DNA of 64,000 nucleotides from the NCBI GenBank assembly GCA_022824305.1, contig JAJEAD010000002.1:1-64000 (forward strand). The letters run 5' to 3'. Source of the stretch: Gammaproteobacteria bacterium (GTDB lineage Bacteria > Pseudomonadota > Gammaproteobacteria > HK1). A program made the translations under genes and the position numbers. The notes under the pieces were generated by a model. That model worked only from the letters and a program-made list of their open reading frames with translations. It searched no databases and was not told the DNA's origin. Below are positions 43,441-57,647 of the stretch, piece by piece. Position 1 is the first letter of the stretch. Every line of letters begins with the position of its first letter.

Positions 43441-43766
43441 GACGTTCTCCCGGGGCTTTTCGCGATTACGTCAGAAAGCCCCATGGCGGTCAAACCACGG
43501 CCACGAACCGCCATGCTCCGCCGGCCCCGATCCCTTTCGTGACCGGGCCGTCCGGAGCGCCTTCGCGGCTTTCGGCCGCCGCGTTGCGCGCTCCCGTGAA
43601 TCCGGGTTAGCCTGCCGGGCCGCCCGGGACCGGCACAGAAAGCGACTCCGTGCTCACGGACCCGGCCGACAGGAAGTCGCTCCTGCGGTCAGCGCACAGG
43701 GACGGTGCGGGCACTTTCGCGGTTCGGGCACACCCGACCGAACCCATCACACGAGGGAGAAACACG
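43441..43766. promoter_or_regulatory. Intergenic region upstream of the sugar-importer array
   Basis: This 326-base gap between the divergent ilvE and RbsB-like genes must contain the promoter of the long plus-strand array. A GAGGGAG ribosome site precedes 43767. I saw no clear operator or riboswitch. An in-frame extension of the binding-protein gene back to 43650 has no support. Confidence 0.35.
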
Positions 43767-44945
43767 ATGAGATTGTGGACGAAGTGTTCCATCGTTCTGG
43801 CGGCTCTCCTGTGGCTGCCGCTCGCCGGCCAGGCGGAGGGAGTGGACGAGCTGCCGGCGGACATCGCGGAGAAGCTCTACGCCGAGGACATGCTCGATCC
43901 GATGCAGCCGATCGGACCGAGCGCCTACCGTGACTGGAAGGCGCCGAACCCGCCGCCGTGGACGATCGGCTACGCCAGCTCCTACGCGGGGAACACCTGG
44001 CGCGCGGGCGTCATGGACCGCCTGATCCAGGAGCTCATTCCCAAGTGGAAGAAGCTCGGCCTGCTCAAGGAGGTCATCGTCACGCAGTCGAACCTCAAGG
44101 ACGCGCTGCAGATCCAGCAGATGCGCCAGCTCGTGGACCGCGGGGTGGATGCGCTCATCGTGTGCTGCTCCAACCCCACCGCGCTGAACCAGACCGTCCA
44201 GTACGCCTACGAGAAAGGCATTCCCACCTTCTCCTTCGTCGGCTACCTGACCTCGCCCTACTCCATCAACTCTTCCGCCAACTACCAGCTCGCCGGGCAC
44301 CGCATGGGCACCTGGATGGCGGATGAGCTCGGCGGCTCCGGCAAGGTGCTGGTGGTCGAGGGCATTCCCGGCACTTCCGGCTCGGACTCCCAGGACCGAG
44401 GCATCAAGGCGGGCCTCGGAGAGTACTCCGACATCGAGATCGTCGGCTCCATCGCGGGCATGTGGACGGACCAGGTCGCGCAGGCCGAGGTCCAGAAGTG
44501 GCTCGCCACCCACCCCGGCCAGCTCGACGGCATCGTGGTGCAGTCCGCGGCCGAGATGGGCGTGCTCAACGCGCTCAAGCAATCGGGCCGCGACATGATC
44601 CCCGTCACCATCGGGGGCGAGCTCGGCGCCATCTGCTACTGGCGCAAGAACATCGACTACATCAGCGGCGCCTACCACGTGTGGCCGCCCGGTGACGACT
44701 TCGAGCTCATCTGGGACATCATGATGCGCACGCTCCAGGGCCAGGGCCCGAGGCTGCAATCGGTGATGGTCGACATCATCCCCTTCGGCAAGGACGACGT
44801 GATGGCGATGATGGGAGAGGACTGCGATGAGAACAACAAGCTCTGGGCCCACGTCGGACCCCAGGTCTGGGGCAGCAAGGAGTTCCTCGATCACTTCTTC
44901 CTGCGGCCCGCGGACCCGGAGGCCTACAAGGCGTCCGACCACTGA
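43767..44945 (+). CDS. RbsB-like periplasmic sugar-binding protein
   Basis: The ~392-residue protein has a signal peptide (M-R-L-W-T-K-C, hydrophobic core, A-G-Q-A-E) and the type I periplasmic-binding fold used by RbsB/XylF-like proteins. Segments such as T-I-G-Y-A-S-S-Y-A-G-N-T-W-R, I-V-C-C-S-N-P-T-A-L and V-V-E-G-I-P-G-T-S-G-S-D match the ribose-binding cluster. The ligand may be a sugar, sugar alcohol or similar compound. It is the first gene of a plus-strand array that continues with an RbsA-like ATPase, two permeases and a rhodopsin gene. Confidence 0.88.
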   Translation: MRLWTKCSIVLAALLWLPLAGQAEGVDELPADIAEKLYAEDMLDPMQPIGPSAYRDWKAPNPPPWTIGYASSYAGNTWRAGVMDRLIQELIPKWKKLGLLKEVIVTQSNLKDALQIQQMRQLVDRGVDALIVCCSNPTALNQTVQYAYEKGIPTFSFVGYLTSPYSINSSANYQLAGHRMGTWMADELGGSGKVLVVEGIPGTSGSDSQDRGIKAGLGEYSDIEIVGSIAGMWTDQVAQAEVQKWLATHPGQLDGIVVQSAAEMGVLNALKQSGRDMIPVTIGGELGAICYWRKNIDYISGAYHVWPPGDDFELIWDIMMRTLQGQGPRLQSVMVDIIPFGKDDVMAMMGEDCDENNKLWAHVGPQVWGSKEFLDHFFLRPADPEAYKASDH

Positions 44946-45011: not shown

Positions 45012-46913
45012 ATGAGTCCCGAGGGCGCCGCGACCGGCCTGTCCCGGCAATCGGGCGCCGCCGCGCATCCATCGGCGGCGCCCTCCACCGCGCGCGATGT
45101 CGTCTCCGTGCTCGGGGTACGGAAGACCTACGGGGTGACGCGGGCGCTGGACGGCTGCTCCTTCAGCGCCCGGCGCGGTGAGATCCACGCCATCGTCGGC
45201 GGGAACGGCTGCGGAAAGTCGACTCTCGCCAAGGTCATGTCGGGAGTGGTGCTGCCCGATGCCGGGCAGTTCTCCATCCTCGCCCACACGCCGCGCACTC
45301 CACTGGAGGCGCGCCGCGCCGGGATCGCGACCGTGTACCAGGAGGTCCTCGTCGCGGACGCCTGCTCGGTGGCCGACAACCTCTTCGTGGGTTCGGACCA
45401 CCTCTTCACCAAGACGCGGCCGAGCGCGGAGAAGCTCCAGACCGCCCGCACGCTGATGAAGGAGCTGACCGGTCTCGCGATCGACCCGGAGATGGACGCC
45501 GGCGGACTGCCGCTCTCCATCAAGCAGTGGATCACCATCGGCCGGGCGCTGCTCATGAAGCCGGAGGTGCTCATCCTGGACGAGTCCTCGGCCGCCCTCG
45601 ATCTCGATTCCACCGAGCGGCTCTTTGCCCGGATGCGCGAGCTGCGCGACCAGGGCGCGACGGTGATCATCGTCACCCACCGCATCGCGGAGCTCATCCG
45701 CATCAGCGACCGCGCCACCGTGATGCGCGACGGGCGCGACGTGGGGGTGCTGGAGAAGCAGGAGATCACCGAGCAGAACCTGCTCGGCCTGATGACCGGC
45801 GACCGGGACCTGGCCCATGACGAAGCCGGCCCGGCGCTGCGCTCGGCGGGCGAAGACCTCGTGATGCAGGCCGACGGCCTTCGCATCTGGCCCGAAGCGG
45901 ACCGGATTCACCTGGAGCTGCGACGGGGCGAGATCGTCGGCGTCGCCGGACTGGACGGGCAGGGGCAGGACGAGCTGGTAAGGGCGCTGGCCGGGGTCCA
46001 GCCCGCGCTCGAGGGCCTGCCCCGGGTGCGCACGGACTCCGGGGACTCGGTCGAGATCACGGGGCTCGAGGCGGCCGAGCGCTGCCGCATCGCCTACGTG
46101 TCGGGGGATCGCCGCCGGGAAGGAATCTTCCCCAACCTGAGCATCTTCGAGAACCTGCTGATCCCGCTCTACCGCAAGCACATCGAGAACGGCCGGCTCG
46201 GAATCATCATGTGGGCCGACGTGTCCGCGATCTTCGACTGGTTCGTGGAGCGTCTCTCGATCAAGGTGGGCGAGAAGACCAACAAGATCACGTCCCTCTC
46301 CGGCGGCAACCAGCAGAAAGTGCTCCTGGGGCGCGCATTCGCGCAGCAGCCGCACATCCTGATCCTGAACGACCCCGCGCGCGGCATCGACGTGGAGACG
46401 AAGCGCGAGCTCTACGACCACCTGCGTGACTTCGCCGCCCAGGGGCACTCGGTGGTGTTCCTGTCGAGCGAGCTCGAGGAGTTCATCGGGCTCTGCAACC
46501 GCGTCGTGGTCGTCCGGCACGGAAGCATCTTCGAGAGCTTCAGCGCCGATGCGATCGACCCCGATCGGATCCTCGAGGCCATGTTCGGGCAGAGAGACGG
46601 CGCGACGGCCGGCGGCGGAAGCGAACGCCCGCACCACGGTCGGGATGCGGGGAGCGCCGAGCCAGGGGAAGACGGGCACGAGCGCCGAGGCCCCGTGCAG
46701 GGCGGCCCCGGCGACGCGGCAGTCATCGACTTCGAGAACGAGAGACGCCGCGCCCGGGAGCGCGCGCGGCGCGTCCGGCGCATCCGCATCGTGGACAGCG
46801 ACGCGGAACGCGCGCGACGCGAGGATGACGCAACTGACGGCGACGACTCGGGCGCCGGGGGCGCCGAGCGCGCGAAAGCGGGCCGGATCCGAATCGTCTA
46901 TTCCGACGAGTGA
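45012..46913 (+). CDS. RbsA-like sugar ABC ATPase with acidic-repeat C-terminal tail
   Basis: The 633-residue protein has the two-domain architecture of RbsA. The first domain has Walker A G-G-N-G-C-G-K-S-T and Walker B V-L-I-L-D-E-S. The second has a degenerate P-loop (L-D-G-Q-G-Q-D-E), as is usual, and an intact signature L-S-G-G-N-Q-Q-K. Normal family length is about 500 residues. The extra ~100 C-terminal residues are acidic and low-complexity, ending in V-I-D-F-E-N-E, R-I-R-I-V-D-S-D-A-E and R-I-R-I-V-Y-S-D-E. These echo the I-K-I-V-E-F-D repeats of the next gene. The tail may dock the ATPase to that protein, which is inference. Confidence 0.87.
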   Translation: MSPEGAATGLSRQSGAAAHPSAAPSTARDVVSVLGVRKTYGVTRALDGCSFSARRGEIHAIVGGNGCGKSTLAKVMSGVVLPDAGQFSILAHTPRTPLEARRAGIATVYQEVLVADACSVADNLFVGSDHLFTKTRPSAEKLQTARTLMKELTGLAIDPEMDAGGLPLSIKQWITIGRALLMKPEVLILDESSAALDLDSTERLFARMRELRDQGATVIIVTHRIAELIRISDRATVMRDGRDVGVLEKQEITEQNLLGLMTGDRDLAHDEAGPALRSAGEDLVMQADGLRIWPEADRIHLELRRGEIVGVAGLDGQGQDELVRALAGVQPALEGLPRVRTDSGDSVEITGLEAAERCRIAYVSGDRRREGIFPNLSIFENLLIPLYRKHIENGRLGIIMWADVSAIFDWFVERLSIKVGEKTNKITSLSGGNQQKVLLGRAFAQQPHILILNDPARGIDVETKRELYDHLRDFAAQGHSVVFLSSELEEFIGLCNRVVVVRHGSIFESFSADAIDPDRILEAMFGQRDGATAGGGSERPHHGRDAGSAEPGEDGHERRGPVQGGPGDAAVIDFENERRRARERARRVRRIRIVDSDAERARREDDATDGDDSGAGGAERAKAGRIRIVYSDE

Positions 46914-46947: not shown

Positions 46948-47307
46948 ATGAACCGCGGGAAGATGAAGATCATCGAGTTCGGGAAGAACGAGGAGCGTGC
47001 GGGCGGGGCCGCGAGCGACTCGCGCGGGGCCGGACGCATGAAGATCGTCGAGTTCGACGACGATGCGCCCACGGGCACGAAGCGCGGCCCGGCCCGGCCC
47101 CCGGTCGGTCCCATCCGGATCGTCGAGTTCGACGACGAGCGGCCCCGGCCGAAGGGGGAGCGCGCGTCGCCTCCGCCCTGGGGACCTTCGGCCTCGCGGG
47201 CGCGGATCGGCGCCATCAAGATCAAGGAGTTCGACGACGATGGCAACGAGCGCCCGCGCGGCGGCGGCGCGGCGGCGGGGCGGATCAAGATCGTCGAGTT
47301 CGACTGA
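46948..47307 (+). CDS. Small repeat protein with five I-[KR]-I-V-E-F-D-D units
   Basis: The 119-residue protein has no family I recognise. It is built from five copies of a short hydrophobic/acidic unit: M-K-I-I-E-F at 6-11, M-K-I-V-E-F-D-D-D at 31-39, I-R-I-V-E-F-D-D-E at 56-64, I-K-I-K-E-F-D-D-D at 90-98 and I-K-I-V-E-F-D at 113-119. Linkers of about 15-25 residues are rich in Gly, Pro and Arg. The units look like single beta-strands with an acidic turn. The ATG at 46948 has GGAGGAG upstream and the gene sits snugly between the ATPase and permease genes, so expression is real. The ATPase tail carries related motifs. It could be an assembly scaffold or a peptide precursor. Confidence 0.8.
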   Translation: MNRGKMKIIEFGKNEERAGGAASDSRGAGRMKIVEFDDDAPTGTKRGPARPPVGPIRIVEFDDERPRPKGERASPPPWGPSASRARIGAIKIKEFDDDGNERPRGGGAAAGRIKIVEFD

Positions 47308-47337: not shown

Positions 47338-49761
47338 GTGGCGCAGGCGGCAGCAGCGGCGGCACACGCGGTGGGGGGCGCCGACTTCAGCCAGGCGCCG
47401 TCGACCGCGCGCACCAATCTGCTCGTGCCCATCCTGCTGCTCTTCGTGCTGCTCATCATCGCGGTGCTCCGCGCGCCGAACCTCATCTCCAGCGTCGGCA
47501 TCGGCAGCGCGATCATCGTGTCCGCGCCCCTCATCCTCGCCACCTACTCCCTCACCCTCATCGCGATGGCGGGACGCGCGGGCGTCGATCTCTCCATCGG
47601 GCCGCTCATCGGCTTCATCAACGTGAGCCTCATCCAGCTCTACGCCGCGGACGTGATCTCCTCGCCGTTCGCGTTCTTCGCCTACGCGATCGTGGTGGGC
47701 ATCCTCTACCAGGTCCTCATGGGACTCATCATCATCTACGTCCGGGTGCAGCCCATCATCGTCGCGCTCAGCGGCTTCCTCGCCCTGGTCGGCCTCAACC
47801 TCGTCATCCTGCCCCGGCCGGGCGGAGTCGCCCCGGAGTGGATGATGCCCTGGGGTCTCGGCACCTCGATCTGGTCCCCGGTCCTCGCCATCCTGGTGCT
47901 GGCGACCGGCGCCTGGTTCCTGCTGACGCGCACCGCGTTCTTCGACCACCTGCGCCTGATGGGCTCCGACGAACGCACCACCTACACCGCCGGAGTGCGC
48001 ATCAACATCGTCCGCCTCGGCGCGCACGTGATCGCGGGCGTCTACAGCGCGCTCGCGGCGCTCACCTTCACCTCCCTCATCAGCTCCGGCGATCCGACCC
48101 AGGGCACGACCTACACCCTGATGGCGGTCACCGCCCTGGTGCTCGGCGGCACGAGCCTCGCGGGCGGGCGCGGCAGCATCATCGGCTCCCTGCTCGGGGC
48201 CCTCAACATCTACCTCATCACCTACGTGCTCTCGACCTTCAACTTCGGCATGGTGCAGAGCTTCGTCACCGATGCCGCCTACGGGGTGGTGCTGGTGGTA
48301 TCCCTCCTCCTCACCCTCGCCCTGCCCCGCCTTCCCGGGGCGGTGCAGCGCCTCTCGCCCTTCGCCTTCTTCGTGGTGCTCGGCGTCGTCGCCTTCAGCG
48401 TGCTGCTGCACGCGAAGGACGAGATCGTCGCGCCGGCGGCGACGATGGAAGACAGCGGATTCACGGTGCTCGGCGCCGACGATTCCGGGCTCACCGTGCT
48501 GGGAGGCGACGATTCGGGCCTGACCGTCCTGGGCGGGGACGATTCCGGGCTTACGGTGCTCGGGGGCGATGACTCCGGCCTCACGGTCCTGGGGGGTGAC
48601 GACTCCGGCCTGACCGTCCTCGGAGGCGACGATTCGGGCCTCACGATTCTGGGCGGCGAGGAGCCCGCCGCCGCGGCGCCGTCCGCCATGGGCACGCCAC
48701 TCGTCTATGCCGCGCTCACCGTGGCCATCGTGGTCTTCCTCGTCTACCTGCTCTACCGCCACCCCTCGGTATCGCTGGTGGCCTTCGTCGGCGTCCTCCT
48801 GCTTCTCGTCCTCGGCCTGAGCCTCTACGAGGGACGCGCTCCGGGCGCCGGCACGCCGGCCGAAGGATCCGGAACACCGTTTGTCTTCTACCTCGAAGCC
48901 CCCGCGCCCGAGACGCAGGCGACGCGAGACGCTTCCGGAGGCGCGGGAGGCTCCCACCCGGCGCTGCCCGCGGTCCGCGGCCTGCTGCTGCTCACCGGAA
49001 CCGTGATGCTCGCCTCGCTGCTCATCGTCATCGCGCTGCCCAGGGTGCGCACACGCCTCGGCAACACCTACCTCCTCTTCATGCTCGCGCTCGGAGCGGC
49101 CGTGCTCGGCGTCCTCCTCTACGCGAGCGGCGGGGCGGAGCTCCTGCCCGGCGGCCTCTACGTCGAAGCCTGGGGCGCCATCCTCCTCGGCGCGGTCCTC
49201 CTGATCGCGAGCATGCCGCGGGTGCAGTCCCGGGTGAAGGACATCACCTTCGTGCTGCTCGCCATCCTCTGCGGGGCGCTGCTCCTTGCCACCTGGTTCT
49301 CCGCCGGGCCGGAGAGCGGCAGCGCCGCGGCGCCCGCCGGCCCGCCGCCGGGAGCCGCTTCCGCACCCTGGCCGCCTCCGGTCGGGACGGCGGCGCTCTC
49401 CGGGAGCTTCTACGGTGCGGTGTTCTGGGTCCTGCTCGCGGCGGGCGCGGTATTCCTGGTGACCCTGCCGCGCGTCGGCTTGGCGGTTCGCGCCTACATC
49501 GCGCAGAACACCGGGGTGAAAGCCTTCTCCTGGACCGGCGGCTTCATCGTGGTCGCCGCGGTGCTCGCGCTCGGGGCGGTGTTCCTCGCCGCCGATCTGC
49601 CCCTGTGGAAGCTCGGAGTCGCGATCGTGGCGGCGAGCGTGGTCGGGCGCTACGCGTGGCGCTTCCTGCACCGCTACCGGGGCGGGGAGATCCTGCCCGC
49701 CGCCCACCGCGGTCCCCGGCCGCGGCGCCGCGACCCCACCCTCGCGGGAGCGAAAAGATGA
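47338..49761 (+). CDS. RbsC-like permease with long repeat-bearing membrane extension
   Basis: The 807-residue protein begins as a normal RbsC permease of ~350 residues (G-R-A-G-V-D-L-S-I-G-P and G-G-T-S-L-A-G-G-R-G-S are family motifs). The ~450-residue extension is unusual. It holds seven D-S-G-L-T-V-L-G-G units at residues 372-440, then about eight more membrane helices. The hairpins recur around an L-P-R-[VL] motif (A-L-P-R-L, A-L-P-R-V, S-M-P-R-V, T-L-P-R-V), suggesting internal duplication. The start is GTG 47338 with GAGGAGG upstream. With the ATPase and second permease it should form a sugar importer. The extension may be a sensory or assembly platform. Confidence 0.85.
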   Translation: MAQAAAAAAHAVGGADFSQAPSTARTNLLVPILLLFVLLIIAVLRAPNLISSVGIGSAIIVSAPLILATYSLTLIAMAGRAGVDLSIGPLIGFINVSLIQLYAADVISSPFAFFAYAIVVGILYQVLMGLIIIYVRVQPIIVALSGFLALVGLNLVILPRPGGVAPEWMMPWGLGTSIWSPVLAILVLATGAWFLLTRTAFFDHLRLMGSDERTTYTAGVRINIVRLGAHVIAGVYSALAALTFTSLISSGDPTQGTTYTLMAVTALVLGGTSLAGGRGSIIGSLLGALNIYLITYVLSTFNFGMVQSFVTDAAYGVVLVVSLLLTLALPRLPGAVQRLSPFAFFVVLGVVAFSVLLHAKDEIVAPAATMEDSGFTVLGADDSGLTVLGGDDSGLTVLGGDDSGLTVLGGDDSGLTVLGGDDSGLTVLGGDDSGLTILGGEEPAAAAPSAMGTPLVYAALTVAIVVFLVYLLYRHPSVSLVAFVGVLLLLVLGLSLYEGRAPGAGTPAEGSGTPFVFYLEAPAPETQATRDASGGAGGSHPALPAVRGLLLLTGTVMLASLLIVIALPRVRTRLGNTYLLFMLALGAAVLGVLLYASGGAELLPGGLYVEAWGAILLGAVLLIASMPRVQSRVKDITFVLLAILCGALLLATWFSAGPESGSAAAPAGPPPGAASAPWPPPVGTAALSGSFYGAVFWVLLAAGAVFLVTLPRVGLAVRAYIAQNTGVKAFSWTGGFIVVAAVLALGAVFLAADLPLWKLGVAIVAASVVGRYAWRFLHRYRGGEILPAAHRGPRPRRRDPTLAGAKR
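48451..48657 (+). repeat. Seven in-frame tandem repeats encoding D-D-S-G-L-T-V-L-G-G
   Basis: One 27-base and six 30-base units encode D-S-G-F-T-V-L-G-A then five D-D-S-G-L-T-V-L-G-G and one D-D-S-G-L-T-I-L-G-G. Synonymous codons differ between units, so the array is not a recent slippage product; the protein sequence is kept while DNA drifted. It lies in the permease extension between membrane helices. Confidence 0.95.
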
Positions 49762-50011: not shown

Positions 50012-51445
50012 ATGAGTCGCGCCGCCCACCGTTTCTACAAGTGGCTGGGCTTCGCGGTCGCGGTGCTCGTCTCCGGCACCGGCGGCATCCTCGGGCTCGT
50101 CGAGGACGTGCCCCTCCAGCACGTCATCTTCTACACCGCCGCCACCTTCGCGCTCGTGCTCTGGGGCTGGCACCACTTCTCGGTGCGCTGGATCTACGAG
50201 CCCGACGCCATCGCGCTCGGCAACATCCGCGAAGGGCCGGGACAGGAAACGGAGCGGCCCGCCGGCGCGCCGGCCGCGGAAGAGCCGGAAGCGGGGACGA
50301 GCTACGTCCGCCGCCTGCTCGTACGCTACCGGCGCATCCTCGTGGGCAGCGTCATCCTCCTGCTCGCCTACCTCGGGGTCGGGGCGACGGTCGACGGCTT
50401 CTTCACCGTCGCCAACGTCGTCGCCTCCCTGATCCTCGCCGCCCTCCTCGCGCTCGCAGTCACCTTCAACCGCCACATCGCCGAGAACAAGAGCGCATTC
50501 ATCGGGATGACCGCCCTGATCGGACTCTTCATCGTCGGCTCCATCGTGGTCGACGGCTTCTTCTCCGCCATCAACATGAAGTCCATGCTGGTCTTCGCCG
50601 CCTTCCTCGGCCTCGCCTGCCTGGGCCAGACCCTGGTGGTGCTCCTCGGTGGCCTGGACCTCTCGATTCCCTTCATCATCGGCTCGGCCAACATCGGGCT
50701 CATGTACCTCTTCGGCTTCGAGGGCCTGCCGAACTGGATCGCGGTGATCTTCATCCTGATCCTGGGAACCCTCATCGGGCTGGTCACCGGCTTCCTGAGC
50801 TTCCGCCTCCAGGGCCAGGCCCTGATCGTCTCGCTCGGGGTCGGCTTCGCGGTGGCCGGCGGCACCCAGATCGTCACGTCGATCGGCACCCGCTACGCCG
50901 GCAACGTGCACGGCGCGGTGCCGGGCTGGCTCACCAACATCGCGGCCATGAACGGCACCACCTTCGGGCTGAGCTTCCCGCCCATCATCCTGATCTGGGT
51001 CGCGATCGCGGTGCTGCTCGTGGTCGCCATGCGCAACACCGTGTACGGCCGCGCCCTCTACGCGCTGGGCGGCAGCCGCACCGCCGCCCGCCGCCTGCGC
51101 ATCTCCGAGCGCCGCTACTGGATCGGGGTCTATGCGATCAGCGGCTTCTTCGCCGCCCTCACCGGAGAGATGCTGCTCGGCTGGAGCGGCAGCGGCTTCA
51201 TCGGCGTCGGCGACCCCTACCTCTTCACCACCCTCGCCGCGGTGGTCATCGGCGGCACCTCCCTTCTCGGCGGCTGGGGCGGATACGGATACACTGTGAT
51301 CGGCGTGCTCGTGCTGCAGGTGCTGACCTCCTTCCTCGTCGGGCTCGGCCTGGACTACGAAGGCCAGCAGTTCATCTTCGGTCTGCTGATCATCCCGCTG
51401 GTGGCGCTGTACGCGCGCTCCCCCCACATCCGCTCGCAGATCTGA
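50012..51445 (+). CDS. RbsC-like permease, second subunit
   Basis: The 477-residue permease has an N-terminal extension with two helices and a charged linker (residues 1-100). The family body follows, with V-L-L-G-G-L-D-L-S-I-P-F and the C-terminal G-G-T-S-L-L-G-G-W-G-G-Y. It ends R-S-P-H-I-R-S-Q-I. The ATG at 50012 has AAGGAGG upstream. The pair of different permeases suggests a heteromeric importer. The 250 bases between the first permease and this gene contain no supported gene. The rhodopsin gene follows after about 100 bases. Confidence 0.87.
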   Translation: MSRAAHRFYKWLGFAVAVLVSGTGGILGLVEDVPLQHVIFYTAATFALVLWGWHHFSVRWIYEPDAIALGNIREGPGQETERPAGAPAAEEPEAGTSYVRRLLVRYRRILVGSVILLLAYLGVGATVDGFFTVANVVASLILAALLALAVTFNRHIAENKSAFIGMTALIGLFIVGSIVVDGFFSAINMKSMLVFAAFLGLACLGQTLVVLLGGLDLSIPFIIGSANIGLMYLFGFEGLPNWIAVIFILILGTLIGLVTGFLSFRLQGQALIVSLGVGFAVAGGTQIVTSIGTRYAGNVHGAVPGWLTNIAAMNGTTFGLSFPPIILIWVAIAVLLVVAMRNTVYGRALYALGGSRTAARRLRISERRYWIGVYAISGFFAALTGEMLLGWSGSGFIGVGDPYLFTTLAAVVIGGTSLLGGWGGYGYTVIGVLVLQVLTSFLVGLGLDYEGQQFIFGLLIIPLVALYARSPHIRSQI

Positions 51446-51543: not shown

Positions 51544-52236
51544 ATGAACGAGATGCTCAATCCGAACGACATCGTGAGCGCGACCTTCTGGCTGATGTCG
51601 CTGGCGATGGCGGGCGCCACCGCGTTCTTCTTCTTCGAGCAGCGGCGGGTGGCGGACCGCTTCAAGCTCTGTCTCGCGGTGATGGGCGCGGTGACGCTGA
51701 TATCCGGCATCCACTACTTCCACCTGCGCGAGGTCTGGGCGGCTACCGGGTCGGTATCGACGGTCTTCCGCTTCGTGGACTGGCAGCTCACCGCGCCGAT
51801 GCAGTGCGTGCTCTTCAGCCTCCTGCTCGGCAGCATCGCCGCCGTGCCCCAGGCCCTCTTCTGGCGCCTGCTGACCGCCTCCGCGGTGATGGTCGCGGCC
51901 GCCTACCTGGGAGCGGCGGGCTACATGAGCCCCACCCTCGGCTTCCTCGTCTCGGTCGCGGGCGGCCTCTACGTCCTCGGCGAAATCTACCTCGGCGAGG
52001 CGAGCAAGATAAACGCCCGGAGCGAGAACGCGGCGGTGCAGTCCGCGTTCAATGCGTTGCGCCTGATCGCGACCATCGGCTGGGCGGTCTATCCGCTCGG
52101 CTACTTCATGGAGTACCTCGGCGGCGGCGTGGACCCCGCCAGCCTGAACGTGATCTACAATCTCGCCGACTTCCTGAACAAGATCACCTTCGGCCTGATC
52201 ATCCATCGGGCAGCGGTGAGAGATTCGGCGCGATGA
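51544..52236 (+). CDS. Proteorhodopsin-like retinal protein without donor carboxylate
   Basis: The ~230-residue seven-helix protein is clearly of the proteorhodopsin type. The Schiff-base lysine is K213 in N-L-A-D-F-L-N-K-I, with second counterion D209. Primary counterion D79 and T83 lie in F-V-D-W-Q-L-T-A-P-M-Q, and H60 matches the conserved His that pairs with the counterion. Q87 at the spectral-tuning position predicts blue absorption. The proton-donor position (D79+11) is L90, where pumps have Glu or Asp, so fast proton pumping is unlikely and a sensory or regulatory role is more plausible. ATG 51553 has better ribosome-site spacing than 51544. It is embedded in the importer array. Confidence 0.9.
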   Translation: MNEMLNPNDIVSATFWLMSLAMAGATAFFFFEQRRVADRFKLCLAVMGAVTLISGIHYFHLREVWAATGSVSTVFRFVDWQLTAPMQCVLFSLLLGSIAAVPQALFWRLLTASAVMVAAAYLGAAGYMSPTLGFLVSVAGGLYVLGEIYLGEASKINARSENAAVQSAFNALRLIATIGWAVYPLGYFMEYLGGGVDPASLNVIYNLADFLNKITFGLIIHRAAVRDSAR

Positions 52237-52288
52237 GCGCGCGTTGCGAGCGCAGCCGTCGGCCGAAGCGGGAGGAGGAGAACGCGCC

Positions 52289-54337
52289 GTGACCGGAGTG
52301 GACATCATTACTGCAATCCTGCTCGCAGGCATATTCATTGCAGTCATCGTCTATCTGCTCTACTGGCTCTACCAGCGATCGTCGAAGGAAGTCGCCTTCG
52401 TGCGCACCGGCTTCGGCGGCGAGAAGGTCATCCTGAACGGGGGCGCCCTGGTCCTCCCGATCATCCACAACATCACCCTCGTCGGAATGAAGACGCTGCG
52501 CCTGGAGGTACGGCGCGGCGGGGGCGCGGCGCTCATCACCAAGGACCGCATGCGGGTGGAGGTGGTCGCCGACTTCTTCCTCCGGGTGCGCCCGGACCGG
52601 GACTCCGTGGCCGCGGCCGCGCAGTCGCTCGGCGGACGGACCATGGACGCCGAGGCGCTCAAGGAGCTGGTCCAGGGCCGCTTCGTGGACGCGCTCAGCA
52701 GCATCGCCGCTCACATGACCATGGACGAGATGCAGGAGGAGCGCGGTCGCTACGTCGACGAGGTCAAACGCCTCGTCGAGAACGTGCTCAGCAGCAACGG
52801 CCTGGAGATGGAGGCGGTCTCGCTGACCGGCCTGGACCAGGCCGACATCGGGGTCTTCAATCCCTCCAACGCCTTCGACGCGGAAGGACTGACGCGCCTG
52901 ACCGAGCAGATCGAGTCGCGCAAGAAGCGCCGCAACGACATCGAGCAGGACACGCTCATCCAGATCCGCAACAAGAACCTCGAGACGGAGAAGCTCTCCC
53001 TCCAGATCGACCAGGAGAGTCACTACGCCCGCCTCGAGCAGGAGCAGCAGGTATCGGTGCGCCGGGCGGAACAGCGCGCCGAGATCACCAAGGACCGGGC
53101 GGCGCGGGACCAGGAGGCCCGGCAGGCCGAGCTGCAGGCGGAAGAGGAGATAGAGAAGGCCCGGATCTTCAAGGAGAAGGCGGTCGAGGCGGAGGAGGCG
53201 CTGCGCGAGGCGCGCCTCACCGAAGAGATCGAGGAGCGGCGCAAGCACCGCAACGAGGTCGAGAAGGAAGTCGCGATCCAGATCTGGGAGAAGGACCTCG
53301 AGGCGGAGAAGCGCTACCTCGACATCCAGAAGGAGACCGAGTTCCTGCGCAGCGAGCAGAAGCGCGAGATCGCGGTGCACCAGGCCGCGCAGCAGTCGGA
53401 GACCGCACGGGAGCGGGCCGAGCGCGAGCGCGAGGCCGAAGAGGCGGAGATCCGCGCCCGCGAGGAAGTCGAGAAGACCCGCATCGCCCAGGACAAGGCG
53501 CTCGAGCTCGAGCGCATCCGGCGGGCGGAGGAGACCGAGCGGCTCGACATCCAGCGCCGCCGCCTGCTCGCCATCGAGGAGAAGGAGCGCGCGATCGCCA
53601 TCGCGGCGAAGGCCCGCGAGGAGCTGGAAACGCTCGCCACGGTGGAAGAGGCGCGCGCCCGCGAGGCGGAGGCGGCGGAGAAGGTCGCCTCGGTCCGGGA
53701 AACCGAGGTCGCGGAGCGCAAGAAGCGGATCGAGATGATCCTCGCCGGGCTCCAGGCCGAGCGCGAGTCCCTGATCATGACCACCGTCGCGGAGGCGGAG
53801 AAGGCGGTGGCGGAGGAACGCGCGGAGGCGGACCGCTTCCAGAGCCTCGCGGCAAGGCTGCGCTACGAGGTCGACGCCGAGGGCAAGCGGGCGCTCAACG
53901 AGGCGGAGAACCTGCGCAACGACGCGAGCCGCCGCAGCGCGCTGCGCATGAAGCTCGTCGAGCACCTCGAAGGGATCATCCGCGAGGCGGTCAAGCCGAT
54001 GGAGCAGATCGACGGGATCAAGATCCTGCAGGTCGAAGGACTGCCGGGCCTGAGCGGCCCTCTCCCCGCGGCCGGCGGGAGCGGCGGGGACGATTCCGGC
54101 GGAGGCTCCGGCGACGACGGGGCGCCGCGGGACGGCACGCCGGGGGCGCGGGGCAGCCTCGCCGACCAGATCGTGAGCTCGGCGTTGCGCTACCGGGCGC
54201 AGGCGCCCTTCGTGGACAACCTGCTCCGCGAGATCGGCATGTCGCCGAACGAGATCACCCGCCTCGGCGGCCTGCTCCGGGACGAGTCCGGCGGCGGCGA
54301 CGCCGCCGGGAAGCCCGCGAGCGACGAGCGGCCGTGA
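52289..54337 (+). CDS. Flotillin-like SPFH protein
   Basis: The 682-residue protein has an N-terminal membrane helix (I-I-T-A-I-L-L-A-G-I-F-I-A-V-I-V), an SPFH/band-7 domain (V-R-T-G-F-G-G-E-K-V near residue 40) and a very long E/K/R/A-rich coiled coil from ~200 to 570, as in flotillin/FloT. A Gly/Asp-rich stretch is followed by a C-terminal helical region. Flotillins scaffold membrane microdomains. The start is GTG 52289 with GGAGGAGGAG upstream. Its place right after the rhodopsin gene suggests a shared membrane platform, which is inference. Confidence 0.85.
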   Translation: MTGVDIITAILLAGIFIAVIVYLLYWLYQRSSKEVAFVRTGFGGEKVILNGGALVLPIIHNITLVGMKTLRLEVRRGGGAALITKDRMRVEVVADFFLRVRPDRDSVAAAAQSLGGRTMDAEALKELVQGRFVDALSSIAAHMTMDEMQEERGRYVDEVKRLVENVLSSNGLEMEAVSLTGLDQADIGVFNPSNAFDAEGLTRLTEQIESRKKRRNDIEQDTLIQIRNKNLETEKLSLQIDQESHYARLEQEQQVSVRRAEQRAEITKDRAARDQEARQAELQAEEEIEKARIFKEKAVEAEEALREARLTEEIEERRKHRNEVEKEVAIQIWEKDLEAEKRYLDIQKETEFLRSEQKREIAVHQAAQQSETARERAEREREAEEAEIRAREEVEKTRIAQDKALELERIRRAEETERLDIQRRRLLAIEEKERAIAIAAKAREELETLATVEEARAREAEAAEKVASVRETEVAERKKRIEMILAGLQAERESLIMTTVAEAEKAVAEERAEADRFQSLAARLRYEVDAEGKRALNEAENLRNDASRRSALRMKLVEHLEGIIREAVKPMEQIDGIKILQVEGLPGLSGPLPAAGGSGGDDSGGGSGDDGAPRDGTPGARGSLADQIVSSALRYRAQAPFVDNLLREIGMSPNEITRLGGLLRDESGGGDAAGKPASDERP

Positions 54338-54429: not shown

Positions 54430-54819
54430 ATGGCCGTAGACGTGAAGACTTGGGCGGGCAAGTTCAAGAGCCTTACCGACAACGACGAAACCATCCAGTG
54501 CATGGGCAAGTACTACACGTGCCGCTTCATGTACGACATGCAGGATCGGAAGGTCATCGTCGAGATGCACGACGGAAAGGTGAAGCACATCAACACCGAT
54601 CCGCAGCCGCTCGACCCCTACGACTTCGCGTTGCGCGCGAGCCCGCAGACCTGGCGCGAGTTCGCCAGGCCGGTGCCCAAGCCGATGTTCCACGGCATCT
54701 TTGCCGCGAGCTTCTGCGAGGACCTCAAGCTCGAGGGCGACCTGCTGGTGCTGATGCAGAACCTGAGGAACTTCACGGCCCAGTTCGAGCTGCTGCGCAA
54801 GAGCGGGGTCCCCGTCTGA
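54430..54819 (+). CDS. SCP2-like small protein
   Basis: The 129-residue soluble protein resembles SCP2/sterol-carrier-like domains by its strand pattern (Y-Y-T-C-R-F-M-Y-D-M, R-K-V-I-V-E-M-H-D-G-K-V) and C-terminal helices with L-K-L-E-G-D-L-L-V-L-M-Q. Similar small proteins often neighbour alpha/beta hydrolases, as here. It might bind a hydrophobic ligand. Exact function is unknown. ATG 54430 has a GAGAGGATGGGG stretch upstream. Confidence 0.6.
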   Translation: MAVDVKTWAGKFKSLTDNDETIQCMGKYYTCRFMYDMQDRKVIVEMHDGKVKHINTDPQPLDPYDFALRASPQTWREFARPVPKPMFHGIFAASFCEDLKLEGDLLVLMQNLRNFTAQFELLRKSGVPV

Positions 54820-54871: not shown

Positions 54872-55723
54872 ATGGCCCGCCATTCCCCCGTAACCGGCCG
54901 CTACGTCACGATCGAGGTGGACGGCAAGGAGTACAAGGTCTTCTACCTGCACAACGGCAGCGGGCAGCCGCTCATCTGCCAGCACACCGCGGGCGCCCAC
55001 AACCACCAGTGGCGCGGCCTGCTCGAGGACGAGGAGTTCACCAGCCAGTACAACATCATCGCCTACGACCTTCCCCGGCACGGCAAGTCCGACCCGCCGC
55101 ACAACACCGAGTGGTGGAAGGAGGAGTACCGGCTCACCGCCGAGCACTACGTCAACTTCATCGTCACGCTCTGCGACGCGCTCGAGCTCAAGGACCCCAT
55201 CTTCATGGGCTCCTCCTTCGGCGGCAACGTGGCGCTCCAGCTCGCGCTGCGCCGGCCCGACCGCTTCAAGGCGGTGATCCCGGTCGAGGCCGCGGACTAC
55301 GCGCCCGGCTTCTTCCTGGACTGGTGGCGCCACCCGCACGCCAACGCCGCCCAGGTCTGCGCGAGCGGGGTGTGGGACCTGATGGCGCCGCAGTCCCCGG
55401 ACATGGACCGCTGGCTCACCTGGCACTACTACTCGCAGGGCTCGGAGGCGTTCCGGGGCGACCTCTACTTCTACTCCGTCGACCATGATCTCCGCGACGA
55501 GCTGCAGAACATCGACGGGCGCCGCTGCCCGGTGGTGATGATGACCGGGACCTACGACTACCTCACCCCGCCCGAGGCAACCGAGAACACCGCACGGCAG
55601 ATCCGCGGGGGCGTCTACATCGAGATGGAGGACATCGGGCACTTCCCGATGAGCGAGAACCACGAGGTCTTCCGGGTCTACCTCCGGGAGGCGCTGCGCA
55701 TCATCAGGGAACGAACGGGCTGA
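54872..55723 (+). CDS. Alpha/beta hydrolase
   Basis: The 283-residue protein has an alpha/beta-hydrolase fold. The oxyanion region is H-T-A-G-A-H, the nucleophile elbow G-S-S-F-G-G, the acid residue in G-T-Y-D-Y-L-T-P-P and the catalytic His in I-G-H-F-P-M-S-E. The triad Ser-Asp-His is complete. It probably hydrolyses an ester or C-C bond of a small molecule. The ATG at 54872 has GGGAG upstream. It is the last gene of the plus-strand array, about 50 bases after the SCP2-like gene. Confidence 0.85.
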   Translation: MARHSPVTGRYVTIEVDGKEYKVFYLHNGSGQPLICQHTAGAHNHQWRGLLEDEEFTSQYNIIAYDLPRHGKSDPPHNTEWWKEEYRLTAEHYVNFIVTLCDALELKDPIFMGSSFGGNVALQLALRRPDRFKAVIPVEAADYAPGFFLDWWRHPHANAAQVCASGVWDLMAPQSPDMDRWLTWHYYSQGSEAFRGDLYFYSVDHDLRDELQNIDGRRCPVVMMTGTYDYLTPPEATENTARQIRGGVYIEMEDIGHFPMSENHEVFRVYLREALRIIRERTG

Positions 55724-55850: not shown

Positions 55851-55926
55851 GTGGATTCCCGCTACCGCGGGATGACGGCCCACGGATAACGTGTTCCGAT
55901 CGTCATCCCGGACGGGAAGCGTCAAC
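55851..55926. repeat. Inverted pair of REP-like elements
   Basis: The motif gtggattcccgctaccgcgggatgacgg at 55851-55878 recurs inverted as cgtcatcccggacgggaagcg around 55900-55920. It resembles the pair at 40757-40842 and sits between the hydrolase and lactonase-like genes. Confidence 0.6.
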
Positions 55927-55944
55927 CAGGCATGGTGGGAGGCG

Positions 55945-56754
55945 ATGTCCCGCGGCGCGCGCGGAACCGCGCGGCGGGCTTCCGGCAAGACCACGGGACT
56001 GCGCCTCTACGCCATGACCTGCGGGTGGCTGAGTTCCGATCTCGGCATGATGCTCGCGGGACGCGAAGGCACGATCCGCTTCCCCATTCCCGCCTACCTC
56101 ATCGAGCACCCCAAGGGCCGGGTGCTCTTCGACACCGGACTGCACCCGCAGTCCATGCACGACGCCCACGGCCGCATCGGGCAGCTCGCGGACTTCTTCC
56201 AGGTGCACTTCCGCCCCGGCGAGGACATCCGGTCGCGCCTGGAGCAGCTCGACATCGATGCGGAGCGGATCGACTACGTCATCAACTCCCATCTCCACTT
56301 CGACCACGCGGGCGGCAACGAGCTGGTGCCCAATGCCCGCATCATCATCCAGCGCCGGGAGTGGGAAGCGGGCCGCCTTCCCGAGGCCATCCAGTCGAAC
56401 GGCTACAACCCCGACGACTACGGGCACGGCCACCTCGTGCGACAGGTCGAAGGCGAGTTCGACCTCTTCGGCGACGGCAGCGTGGTGAGCTTCCCCACCT
56501 TCGGCCACACCCCCGGCCACCAGTCCCTGAAGCTGAAGCTCTCCCGGGGCGAGGTCGTGCTCGCCGCCGACGCCTGCTACTTCCGCGAGAGCCTCGAGAA
56601 GCTCCACCTCCCGGGTCTGGTCGCCGACCGCGTGCAGATGGTCAACTCCCTCCTGCTGCTGCGGAAGCTCCAGCGCAACGGCGCCCGCATCTTCTACGGC
56701 CACGATCCCGAATTCTGGCGGCAGGTCCCGCAGGCGCCCCTGGCGGTGGTGTGA
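55945..56754 (+). CDS. Metallo-beta-lactamase-fold hydrolase, AHL-lactonase-like
   Basis: The ~269-residue protein has the di-zinc motif N-S-H-L-H-F-D-H-A-G-G, a later His in F-G-H-T-P-G-H and Asp in L-A-A-D-A-C-Y, as in AiiA-type lactonases. The early segment L-R-L-Y-A-M-T-C-G-W-L is typical of that group. It may open homoserine lactones or other lactones; the function is not proven by sequence. ATG 55945 is preferred, with GGGAGG just upstream; ATG 56014 lies inside the expected domain. Confidence 0.8.
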   Translation: MSRGARGTARRASGKTTGLRLYAMTCGWLSSDLGMMLAGREGTIRFPIPAYLIEHPKGRVLFDTGLHPQSMHDAHGRIGQLADFFQVHFRPGEDIRSRLEQLDIDAERIDYVINSHLHFDHAGGNELVPNARIIIQRREWEAGRLPEAIQSNGYNPDDYGHGHLVRQVEGEFDLFGDGSVVSFPTFGHTPGHQSLKLKLSRGEVVLAADACYFRESLEKLHLPGLVADRVQMVNSLLLLRKLQRNGARIFYGHDPEFWRQVPQAPLAVV

Positions 56755-57009: not shown

Positions 57010-57255
57010 GTGCCAACATCCACCCTGACCAGCAAGGGACAGATTACGCTGCCGCTGGCCGTACGCCGGGCGTTGGTCCTCGAAGCCGGTGACAAAGTCG
57101 ACTTCGTCGAAGTGCCGGGTGGCTACAAGCTCGTTCCACTCCGGACGGACATCCGTGCGCTGAAAGGCCGGTTTGCGGGACGAGTCGAGCAGCCGGTGAG
57201 TCTCGACGAGATGGACGAAGCGATCGCCGACGCCACCGCGGCTCGACAGAAATGA
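57010..57255 (+). CDS. vapB: VapB-type AbrB-fold antitoxin
   Basis: The 81-residue protein has the swapped-hairpin AbrB motif T-S-K-G-Q-I-T-L-P-L-A-V-R-R-A-L at residues 8-23, followed by a flexible C-terminal tail that would cover the toxin's active site. It starts at GTG 57010 just after AAGGAG. The stop overlaps the toxin start by four bases (ATGA). It should bind its own promoter with the toxin. Confidence 0.85.
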   Translation: MPTSTLTSKGQITLPLAVRRALVLEAGDKVDFVEVPGGYKLVPLRTDIRALKGRFAGRVEQPVSLDEMDEAIADATAARQK

Positions 57256-57647
57256 CCGGGCTCGATACCAACGTACTGGTCCGCTACCTGACGCAGGATG
57301 ATCCGGCCCAGTCCGCTCGCGCAACACGATTGATGGAGCAGGAGCTTTCGGAGGACGAGCCGGGATATGTCGGTCTGGTAGCCCTTGCCGAGACGACCTG
57401 GGTGCTGCAGCGTCTGTACCGGGCCAGTGCGGCAGAGATTCATGACACCGTGGCCGATTTTCTTGGTGCGAAGCAGATCGTCGTCGAGAACCGCGACGCT
57501 GTCTCGCGTGCATTGGCCACATCGGCCGAAGGGAAGTGTACCTTTGCCGATGCGCTGATCGCGGCATCCGCGACCGTTGCCGGATGCACCTCGGTCGTGA
57601 GCTTCGACCACGGCGCGGTGCGCGCCGGGACGAAGCTCCTGGCTTGA
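57252..57647 (+). CDS. vapC: VapC-type PIN-domain ribonuclease toxin
   Basis: The 131-residue PIN protein has the conserved acidic set: D5 in G-L-D-T-N-V-L-V-R, E in A-L-A-E-T-T-W-V, and D in T-F-A-D-A-L-I-A with a further D in S-F-D-H. These bind Mg2+ for RNA cleavage. It is coupled to the AbrB-type antitoxin by ATGA overlap and looks complete. Confidence 0.88.
   Translation: MTGLDTNVLVRYLTQDDPAQSARATRLMEQELSEDEPGYVGLVALAETTWVLQRLYRASAAEIHDTVADFLGAKQIVVENRDAVSRALATSAEGKCTFADALIAASATVAGCTSVVSFDHGAVRAGTKLLA

Follow-up and report, generated by a model that had tools for sequence, protein, structure and literature searches.

A five-unit protein of a flotillin-associated-rhodopsin cluster shares its short motif with importer ATPases and catabolic enzymes of such clusters

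What does a small protein do that matches no known family, repeats one short unit five times and is encoded between the ATPase and permease genes of an ABC importer? This question is raised by a 64,000-nucleotide stretch of gammaproteobacterial DNA (hereafter the window), in which a first-pass annotation had described five I-[KR]-I-V-E-F-D-D units in such a protein. The open reading frame, P0001, encodes 119 residues from an ATG start with GGAGGAG 5 bases upstream, and its placement proved accurate, an RbsA-type ATPase gene lying upstream and an RbsC-type permease gene downstream. The five units are real as well, with the letters slightly idealised in the annotation: units 1 and 2 start with M, the V is replaced by I in unit 1 and by K in unit 4, unit 1 closes with G and unit 5 stops at D. 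The pattern of the five is [IM]-[KR]-I-[VIK]-E-F-[DG]:

46948..47307, + strand: P0001, five-tag protein, predicted to be disordered (open reading frame, relatives, AlphaFold, pN/pS)
46963..46983, + strand: tag unit 1 of P0001, MKIIEFG
47038..47058, + strand: tag unit 2 of P0001, MKIVEFD
47113..47133, + strand: tag unit 3 of P0001, IRIVEFD
47215..47235, + strand: tag unit 4 of P0001, IKIKEFD
47284..47304, + strand: tag unit 5, IKIVEFD, the C-terminus of P0001

The class [IVM][KR][IV][VIKRM][DE][FY] fits P0001 five times, against a mean of 0.0009 and a maximum of 1 in 100,000 shuffles of the protein, on which a chance origin of the units was rejected. Simple-repeat or slippage origin was rejected too, as Tandem Repeats Finder reported no array, the linkers differ and codons vary between orthologues. 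Searches of Pfam, NCBIfam, PDB and PHROG gave no match above cut-off, in line with the earlier statement that the protein matches no known family; a YmzC match in Pfam, at 15.4 bits well below the cut-off of 27, was discarded, as were PHROG matches with E of 0.2-0.5. Relatives of P0001 are encoded at seven loci (L037-L042 and L057), again between ATPase and permease, with 37-42% identity and five units in the same order, one unit being degenerate in L041 and likewise one in L042; homologues without conserved units, the finding that the annotation had named as fatal to its reading, were not encountered among these seven. Among five close relatives the units have a pN/pS of 0.079 and the linkers one of 0.58, indicating that the units are under strong purifying selection, thus that the frame is translated, as had been supposed, and that it is the units that selection preserves. 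These data support P0001 as a real, translated, conserved and previously undescribed repeat protein.

The proposal that the units build a repeat-protein fold was not supported. The AlphaFold model of P0001 has a pLDDT of 45.8 and no secondary-structure elements (no strand of at least 3 residues; alignment of 8 sequences), which disfavours a folded tandem-repeat protein, and the linkers are barely conserved. The absence of a predicted fold supports intrinsic disorder and falls short of proof, because an alignment of 8 sequences is shallow. Short linear motifs are the better description of the units, since the ATPase and several unrelated enzymes bear single copies on their tails.

The P0001 gene sits in a flotillin-associated-rhodopsin (FAR) cluster, with the gene order binding protein, ATPase, P0001, permease 1, permease 2, rhodopsin, flotillin, 129-aa protein, alpha/beta hydrolase and lactonase:

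43650..44945, + strand: periplasmic substrate-binding protein
45012..46913, + strand: RbsA-type sugar ABC ATPase; degenerate tags stand in its tail of ~107 residues
47338..49761, + strand: RbsC-type permease 1, with a long C-terminal extension
50012..51445, + strand: permease 2; its N-terminal extension is lacking in non-FAR homologues
51544..52236, + strand: rhodopsin (Bac_rhodopsin), TM7 lysine kept (NLADFLNKITFG)
52244..54337, + strand: flotillin (Band_7 plus Flot)
54430..54819, + strand: 129-aa SCP2-fold protein, candidate receptor, whose type tracks tag presence
54872..55723, + strand: alpha/beta hydrolase, the most conserved cluster protein
55891..56754, + strand: metallo-beta-lactamase-fold lactonase of the untagged type

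Rhodopsin is followed by flotillin on the same strand, and a sterol-carrier-type gene (SCP2 fold), an inner-membrane permease (BPD_transp_2) and a sodium symporter (SSF) are present, the symporter on the strand opposite to the cluster; rhodopsins of SAR11 clusters match at 54-56%. Pfam gave no match to the 129-aa protein, which is well modelled (pLDDT 88.5) and has SCP2-type sterol carriers as its nearest solved folds (3bn8, E 4e-5), consistent with the sterol-carrier gene reported in the FAR paper (PMC10308929). The FAR cluster has been described in SAR11, HIMB59 and Pseudothioglobus, where rhodopsin lies beside flotillin together with genes for a sterol carrier, permease, symporter, alpha/beta hydrolase and, in SAR11, a biotin-dependent carboxylase (PMC10308929). 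The same kinds of genes make up the clusters found here, which extend its range to rhizobia, Rhodospirillales, Betaproteobacteria and a Desulfobacterales MAG. The window importer resembles RbsABC-type sugar importers in its substrate-binding protein, double ATPase and two BPD_transp_2 permeases, but differs in the tagged ATPase tail, the permease extensions and the five-tag protein. As regards the rhodopsin, the window retains the retinal lysine of TM7, as do its closest relatives, SAR11 (NLADFLNK) and the gammaproteobacterial loci L043 and L044; this lysine is replaced by Arg in rhizobia and by Glu, Gln or Leu in others, so that many cluster rhodopsins may not bind retinal. Downstream of the cluster, positions 57252-57647 hold a 131-aa ORF that looks PIN-domain-like (MTGLDTNVLVRYL).

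The first-pass annotation had overlooked that degenerate copies of the unit occur in the tail of the neighbouring ATPase:

46722..46736, + strand: VIDFE, tag-like stretch in the ATPase tail
46782..46802, + strand: IRIVDSD, tag in the ATPase tail
46887..46910, + strand: IRIVYSDE, final residues of the ATPase

Across the cluster the tag has the consensus [IMV]-[KR]-I-[VI]-[ED]-F-[DG]. The C-terminal tail of the ABC ATPase is tagged in 47 of 57 loci; these tails have a disordered-looking composition and hold one or more copies, of which the final one typically lies 8-20 residues before the C-terminus, as in IKIVEFDPDTLQ (Hoeflea), IRIIEFDAESGQ (Martelella) and VKVVDFT...IKVKYF (SAR11). The motif was found in 37 of 53 ATPase tails against 0.014 expected from shuffled tails, and its density was 49 in 5,441 tail residues versus 0 in 29,178 residues of the ATPase domains; the remaining cluster proteins had a single motif in 181,155 residues, likewise terminal. 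In 29 of 31 loci the AttM-type lactonase is tagged at its N-terminus (MKIVEFDDKGQR or a close variant), the two exceptions being L051 with MKILEFN and L048, apparently another protein. Hydantoinase B (HyuB) ends in IKIVDFD...IKIRYF or a close variant in L036, L043 and L044, where small proteins are tagged also, and the SAR11 biotin carboxylase ends in IKIVETD...IKVVYFD. A scoring-matrix scan, with a matrix trained on some of these matches, gave 137 matches above 16 bits versus 0 in shuffled sequences. In L029 (10911-11846) and L032 (10863-11801) the annotated AttM starts, 11076 and 11031, lie downstream of an in-frame MKIVEFDD/MKIIEFDE start, so that the tag is absent from the annotated proteins.

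The cluster was followed through other genomes with the binding protein and permease 1 as queries. The permease 1 scan gave 80 loci, mostly FAR clusters, in Rhodospirillales (including a sponge bin), rhizobia, Burkholderiales, Gammaproteobacteria, a Desulfobacterales MAG and many SAR11 single cells; FAR clusters were found on rhizobial plasmids too. The motif is specific to the cluster. A tagged protein is present in 54 of the 57 loci with ATPase and flotillin and in 0 of 6 homologous ATPases without FAR genes, with a Fisher p of 1e-6 that is only indicative, because the lineages are not independent. The ATPases of L031, L117, L118, L120 and L121 (~51-53% identity; without rhodopsin and flotillin) have short untagged tails, and in L066, where FAR genes are absent from the stretch covered, the ATPase tail bears a different repeated motif. 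A strict back-translated pattern matched 20 times in 16 whole genomes, 19 times in FAR clusters and once antisense to a TonB receptor gene. P0001 had no match in 54 relatives of the window's genome, where the strict pattern gave 4 stray matches in total; since, in addition, the closest ABC proteins in the family of the window's genome are distant, horizontal gain of the window's cluster is likely.

We propose, with a probability of roughly 0.7, that FAR clusters encode a docking-tag system in which P0001 is a multivalent, disordered component. This system would gather the importer and the first catabolic enzymes. The docking-tag reading is suggested by a short motif that stands on flexible termini of cytoplasmic proteins, unrelated to one another but encoded in one operon, and that has been moved between enzymes according to lineage. 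The tag on the loose termini of the importer ATPase and of cluster-dependent first catabolic enzymes (AttM-type lactonase, hydantoinase B, biotin carboxylase) would most likely bind one cluster-encoded hub as a short beta-strand, a mode of binding suggested by the alternation of hydrophobic residues in the tag. The importer and the first enzyme of its substrate would thereby collect in one flotillin-rhodopsin membrane body, inside which the imported substrate would be handed on locally; such channelling is the likely gain, as the tagged proteins are the importer ATPase and catabolic enzymes. The rhizobial cluster with the tagged lactonase also holds alcohol and semialdehyde dehydrogenase genes. 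With its five tags, P0001 would cross-link several hubs and so nucleate or hold the assembly. In a more extended form, to which we give an even chance, the system would be a metabolon built through one transferable tag, such that any tagged cytoplasmic enzyme joins a body of importer, flotillin, rhodopsin and SCP2-fold hub, P0001 serves as a five-valent and possibly condensing linker, and lineages swap enzymes by moving the tag. Several observations count against the docking-tag reading: the window's lactonase and hydrolase are untagged, so that in the window cluster only the ATPase, with its degenerate tags, and P0001 would dock; the ATPases of the full clusters L052, L065 and L067 are untagged, though the lactonase there is tagged; and flotillin and rhodopsin are retained in the type-2 clusters described below, whose tags are degenerate at most.

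Which cluster protein might be the hub? We tentatively favour the pair of SCP2-fold protein and alpha/beta hydrolase, at somewhat under even odds. All 51 loci with a type-1 SCP2-fold protein are tagged, versus 0 of 7 type-2 loci with a strict tag; type-2 clusters have kept flotillin and rhodopsin, and have at most degenerate tags at the hydrolase C-terminus (RVIDL, VRVLDVD), the stretch in L049 being VRIVEF. Type-2 clusters are strongly set apart in the SCP2-fold protein (distance ratio 3.6) and the hydrolase (4.2) and little in flotillin (1.34), and the mean distance within type 1 is 0.34 for the hydrolase (the most conserved of the set) versus 0.93 for flotillin. As type 2 is one clade for the SCP2-fold protein, this correlation may rest on one evolutionary event. 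In the type-2 ATPases (L030, L045, L048 and L049) the frame continues without a stop into what we take to be a PEBP/YbhB-like domain, with no tag. The hub could instead be flotillin, which would scaffold the microdomain and recruit clients through the tags, the SCP2-fold protein and the hydrolase being merely other clients. Every tagged locus with a complete cluster has flotillin, homologous loci without it are untagged, and flotillins are described as membrane-microdomain scaffolds (PMC5718613, PMC10308929). However, type-2 flotillin is only mildly diverged, yet strict tags are absent there, and the window's genome (G000) encodes two more flotillin-like proteins (C6:183005-185659, L158; C25:102831-103994, L159) with no tags and no rhodopsin nearby. 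We place a flotillin hub only a little lower than this pair, and, since it is itself a version of the docking-tag reading, our confidence in it overlaps with that in the latter.

Readings without docking explain less of the data. The tails might be intramolecular and regulatory, the ATPase tail binding the permease extensions and controlling the ATPase-permease complex with P0001 as a free competitor, and it is true that non-FAR permeases are without both extensions and their ATPases without the tail; importer autoregulation nevertheless leaves the tag on the lactonase, hydantoinase B and biotin carboxylase unexplained, and we regard it as unlikely. That the motif is terminal, short and transferable would also suit a degradation or quality-control tag coupling the turnover of cluster proteins. 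Yet it occurs at both N- and C-termini and five times in one small protein, and it is confined to one cluster per genome, where general proteases would act genome-wide, so such a tag seems very improbable. Small size and short repeated units after a ribosome site had led the first-pass annotation to consider a RiPP-type product, P0001 then being a precursor with five core peptides; but no RiPP modification enzyme, maturation protease or exporter was recognised in the cassette and among the nearby proteins examined, and the recurrence of the units on the ATPase and on enzymes argues against a peptide product, which leaves this possibility hardly credible.

The docking-tag system would be a new one within motif-organised metabolic bodies, and it belongs to none of the families tested. 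Cargo-loading peptides of encapsulins and bacterial microcompartments are short and terminal, sit on loose linkers and recruit enzymes into a shared structure. The FAR tag is likewise short, terminal and on loose linkers, but it is strand-like and also found on an ABC ATPase, and no shell protein occurs among the neighbours examined. EPYC1 of the Chlamydomonas pyrenoid is a disordered linker with five Rubisco-binding regions, and the same motif targets other proteins (PMC10473226). P0001 is similarly a chain, predicted to be disordered, with five copies of a short motif that stands on other proteins as well, here those of the same cluster, which by analogy might share a common body, and weak multivalent gathering is proposed for both. 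In contrast to EPYC1, P0001 has another motif, is bacterial and would be centred on a membrane importer; no sequence relation is claimed.

For the FAR rhodopsin and flotillin, action in membrane microdomains is the only role that has been proposed (PMC10308929); the text of that paper makes no mention of tails, repeats or a shared tag. Searches of the full-text literature, with subscription papers and preprints outside their scope, returned nothing relevant on the motif letters or on links between tag and flotillin. The shared tag indicates which proteins meet at the FAR site and makes the microdomain hypothesis directly testable, since a single hub is then expected to have both the importer and the first catabolic enzyme among its clients. 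Our results suggest that bacteria assemble a pump and its enzymes at one membrane spot in a manner not described before. If true, bacteria would have a rule for sorting soluble enzymes to a transporter, with a reach that takes in the abundant marine SAR11 and plant- and sponge-associated bacteria, and the tag would be a ready-made short sequence to try for recruiting enzymes to membranes.

Other short motifs were seen at some of the loci. A second tail motif, [YF][ST]xxDxxxFxxLM, occurs in up to 4 copies, borne either by the ATPase tail or by a small protein, at the following loci:

L036, 10882-11637: bearer of [YF][ST]xxDxxxFxxLM
L043, 5002-5757: bearer of [YF][ST]xxDxxxFxxLM
L044, 5490-5822: bearer of [YF][ST]xxDxxxFxxLM
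L066, 7706-9916: bearer of [YF][ST]xxDxxxFxxLM

The ATPase tails of L046, L072 and L083 and those of L052, L065 and L067 hold two further motifs, WKSxxSxYPxFD (repeated in L046) and LPPWMRxxR. In the window, the extension of permease 1 carries seven copies of a repeat of ~10 residues, SGLTVLGGDD (48461-48659), in a loop that is probably periplasmic. Relatives of permease 1 differ in the repeats that they carry there (SGIQSLGSGSG, SGLTVLGAEPD, GTSLSG), so that a second short motif may act on the outer side.
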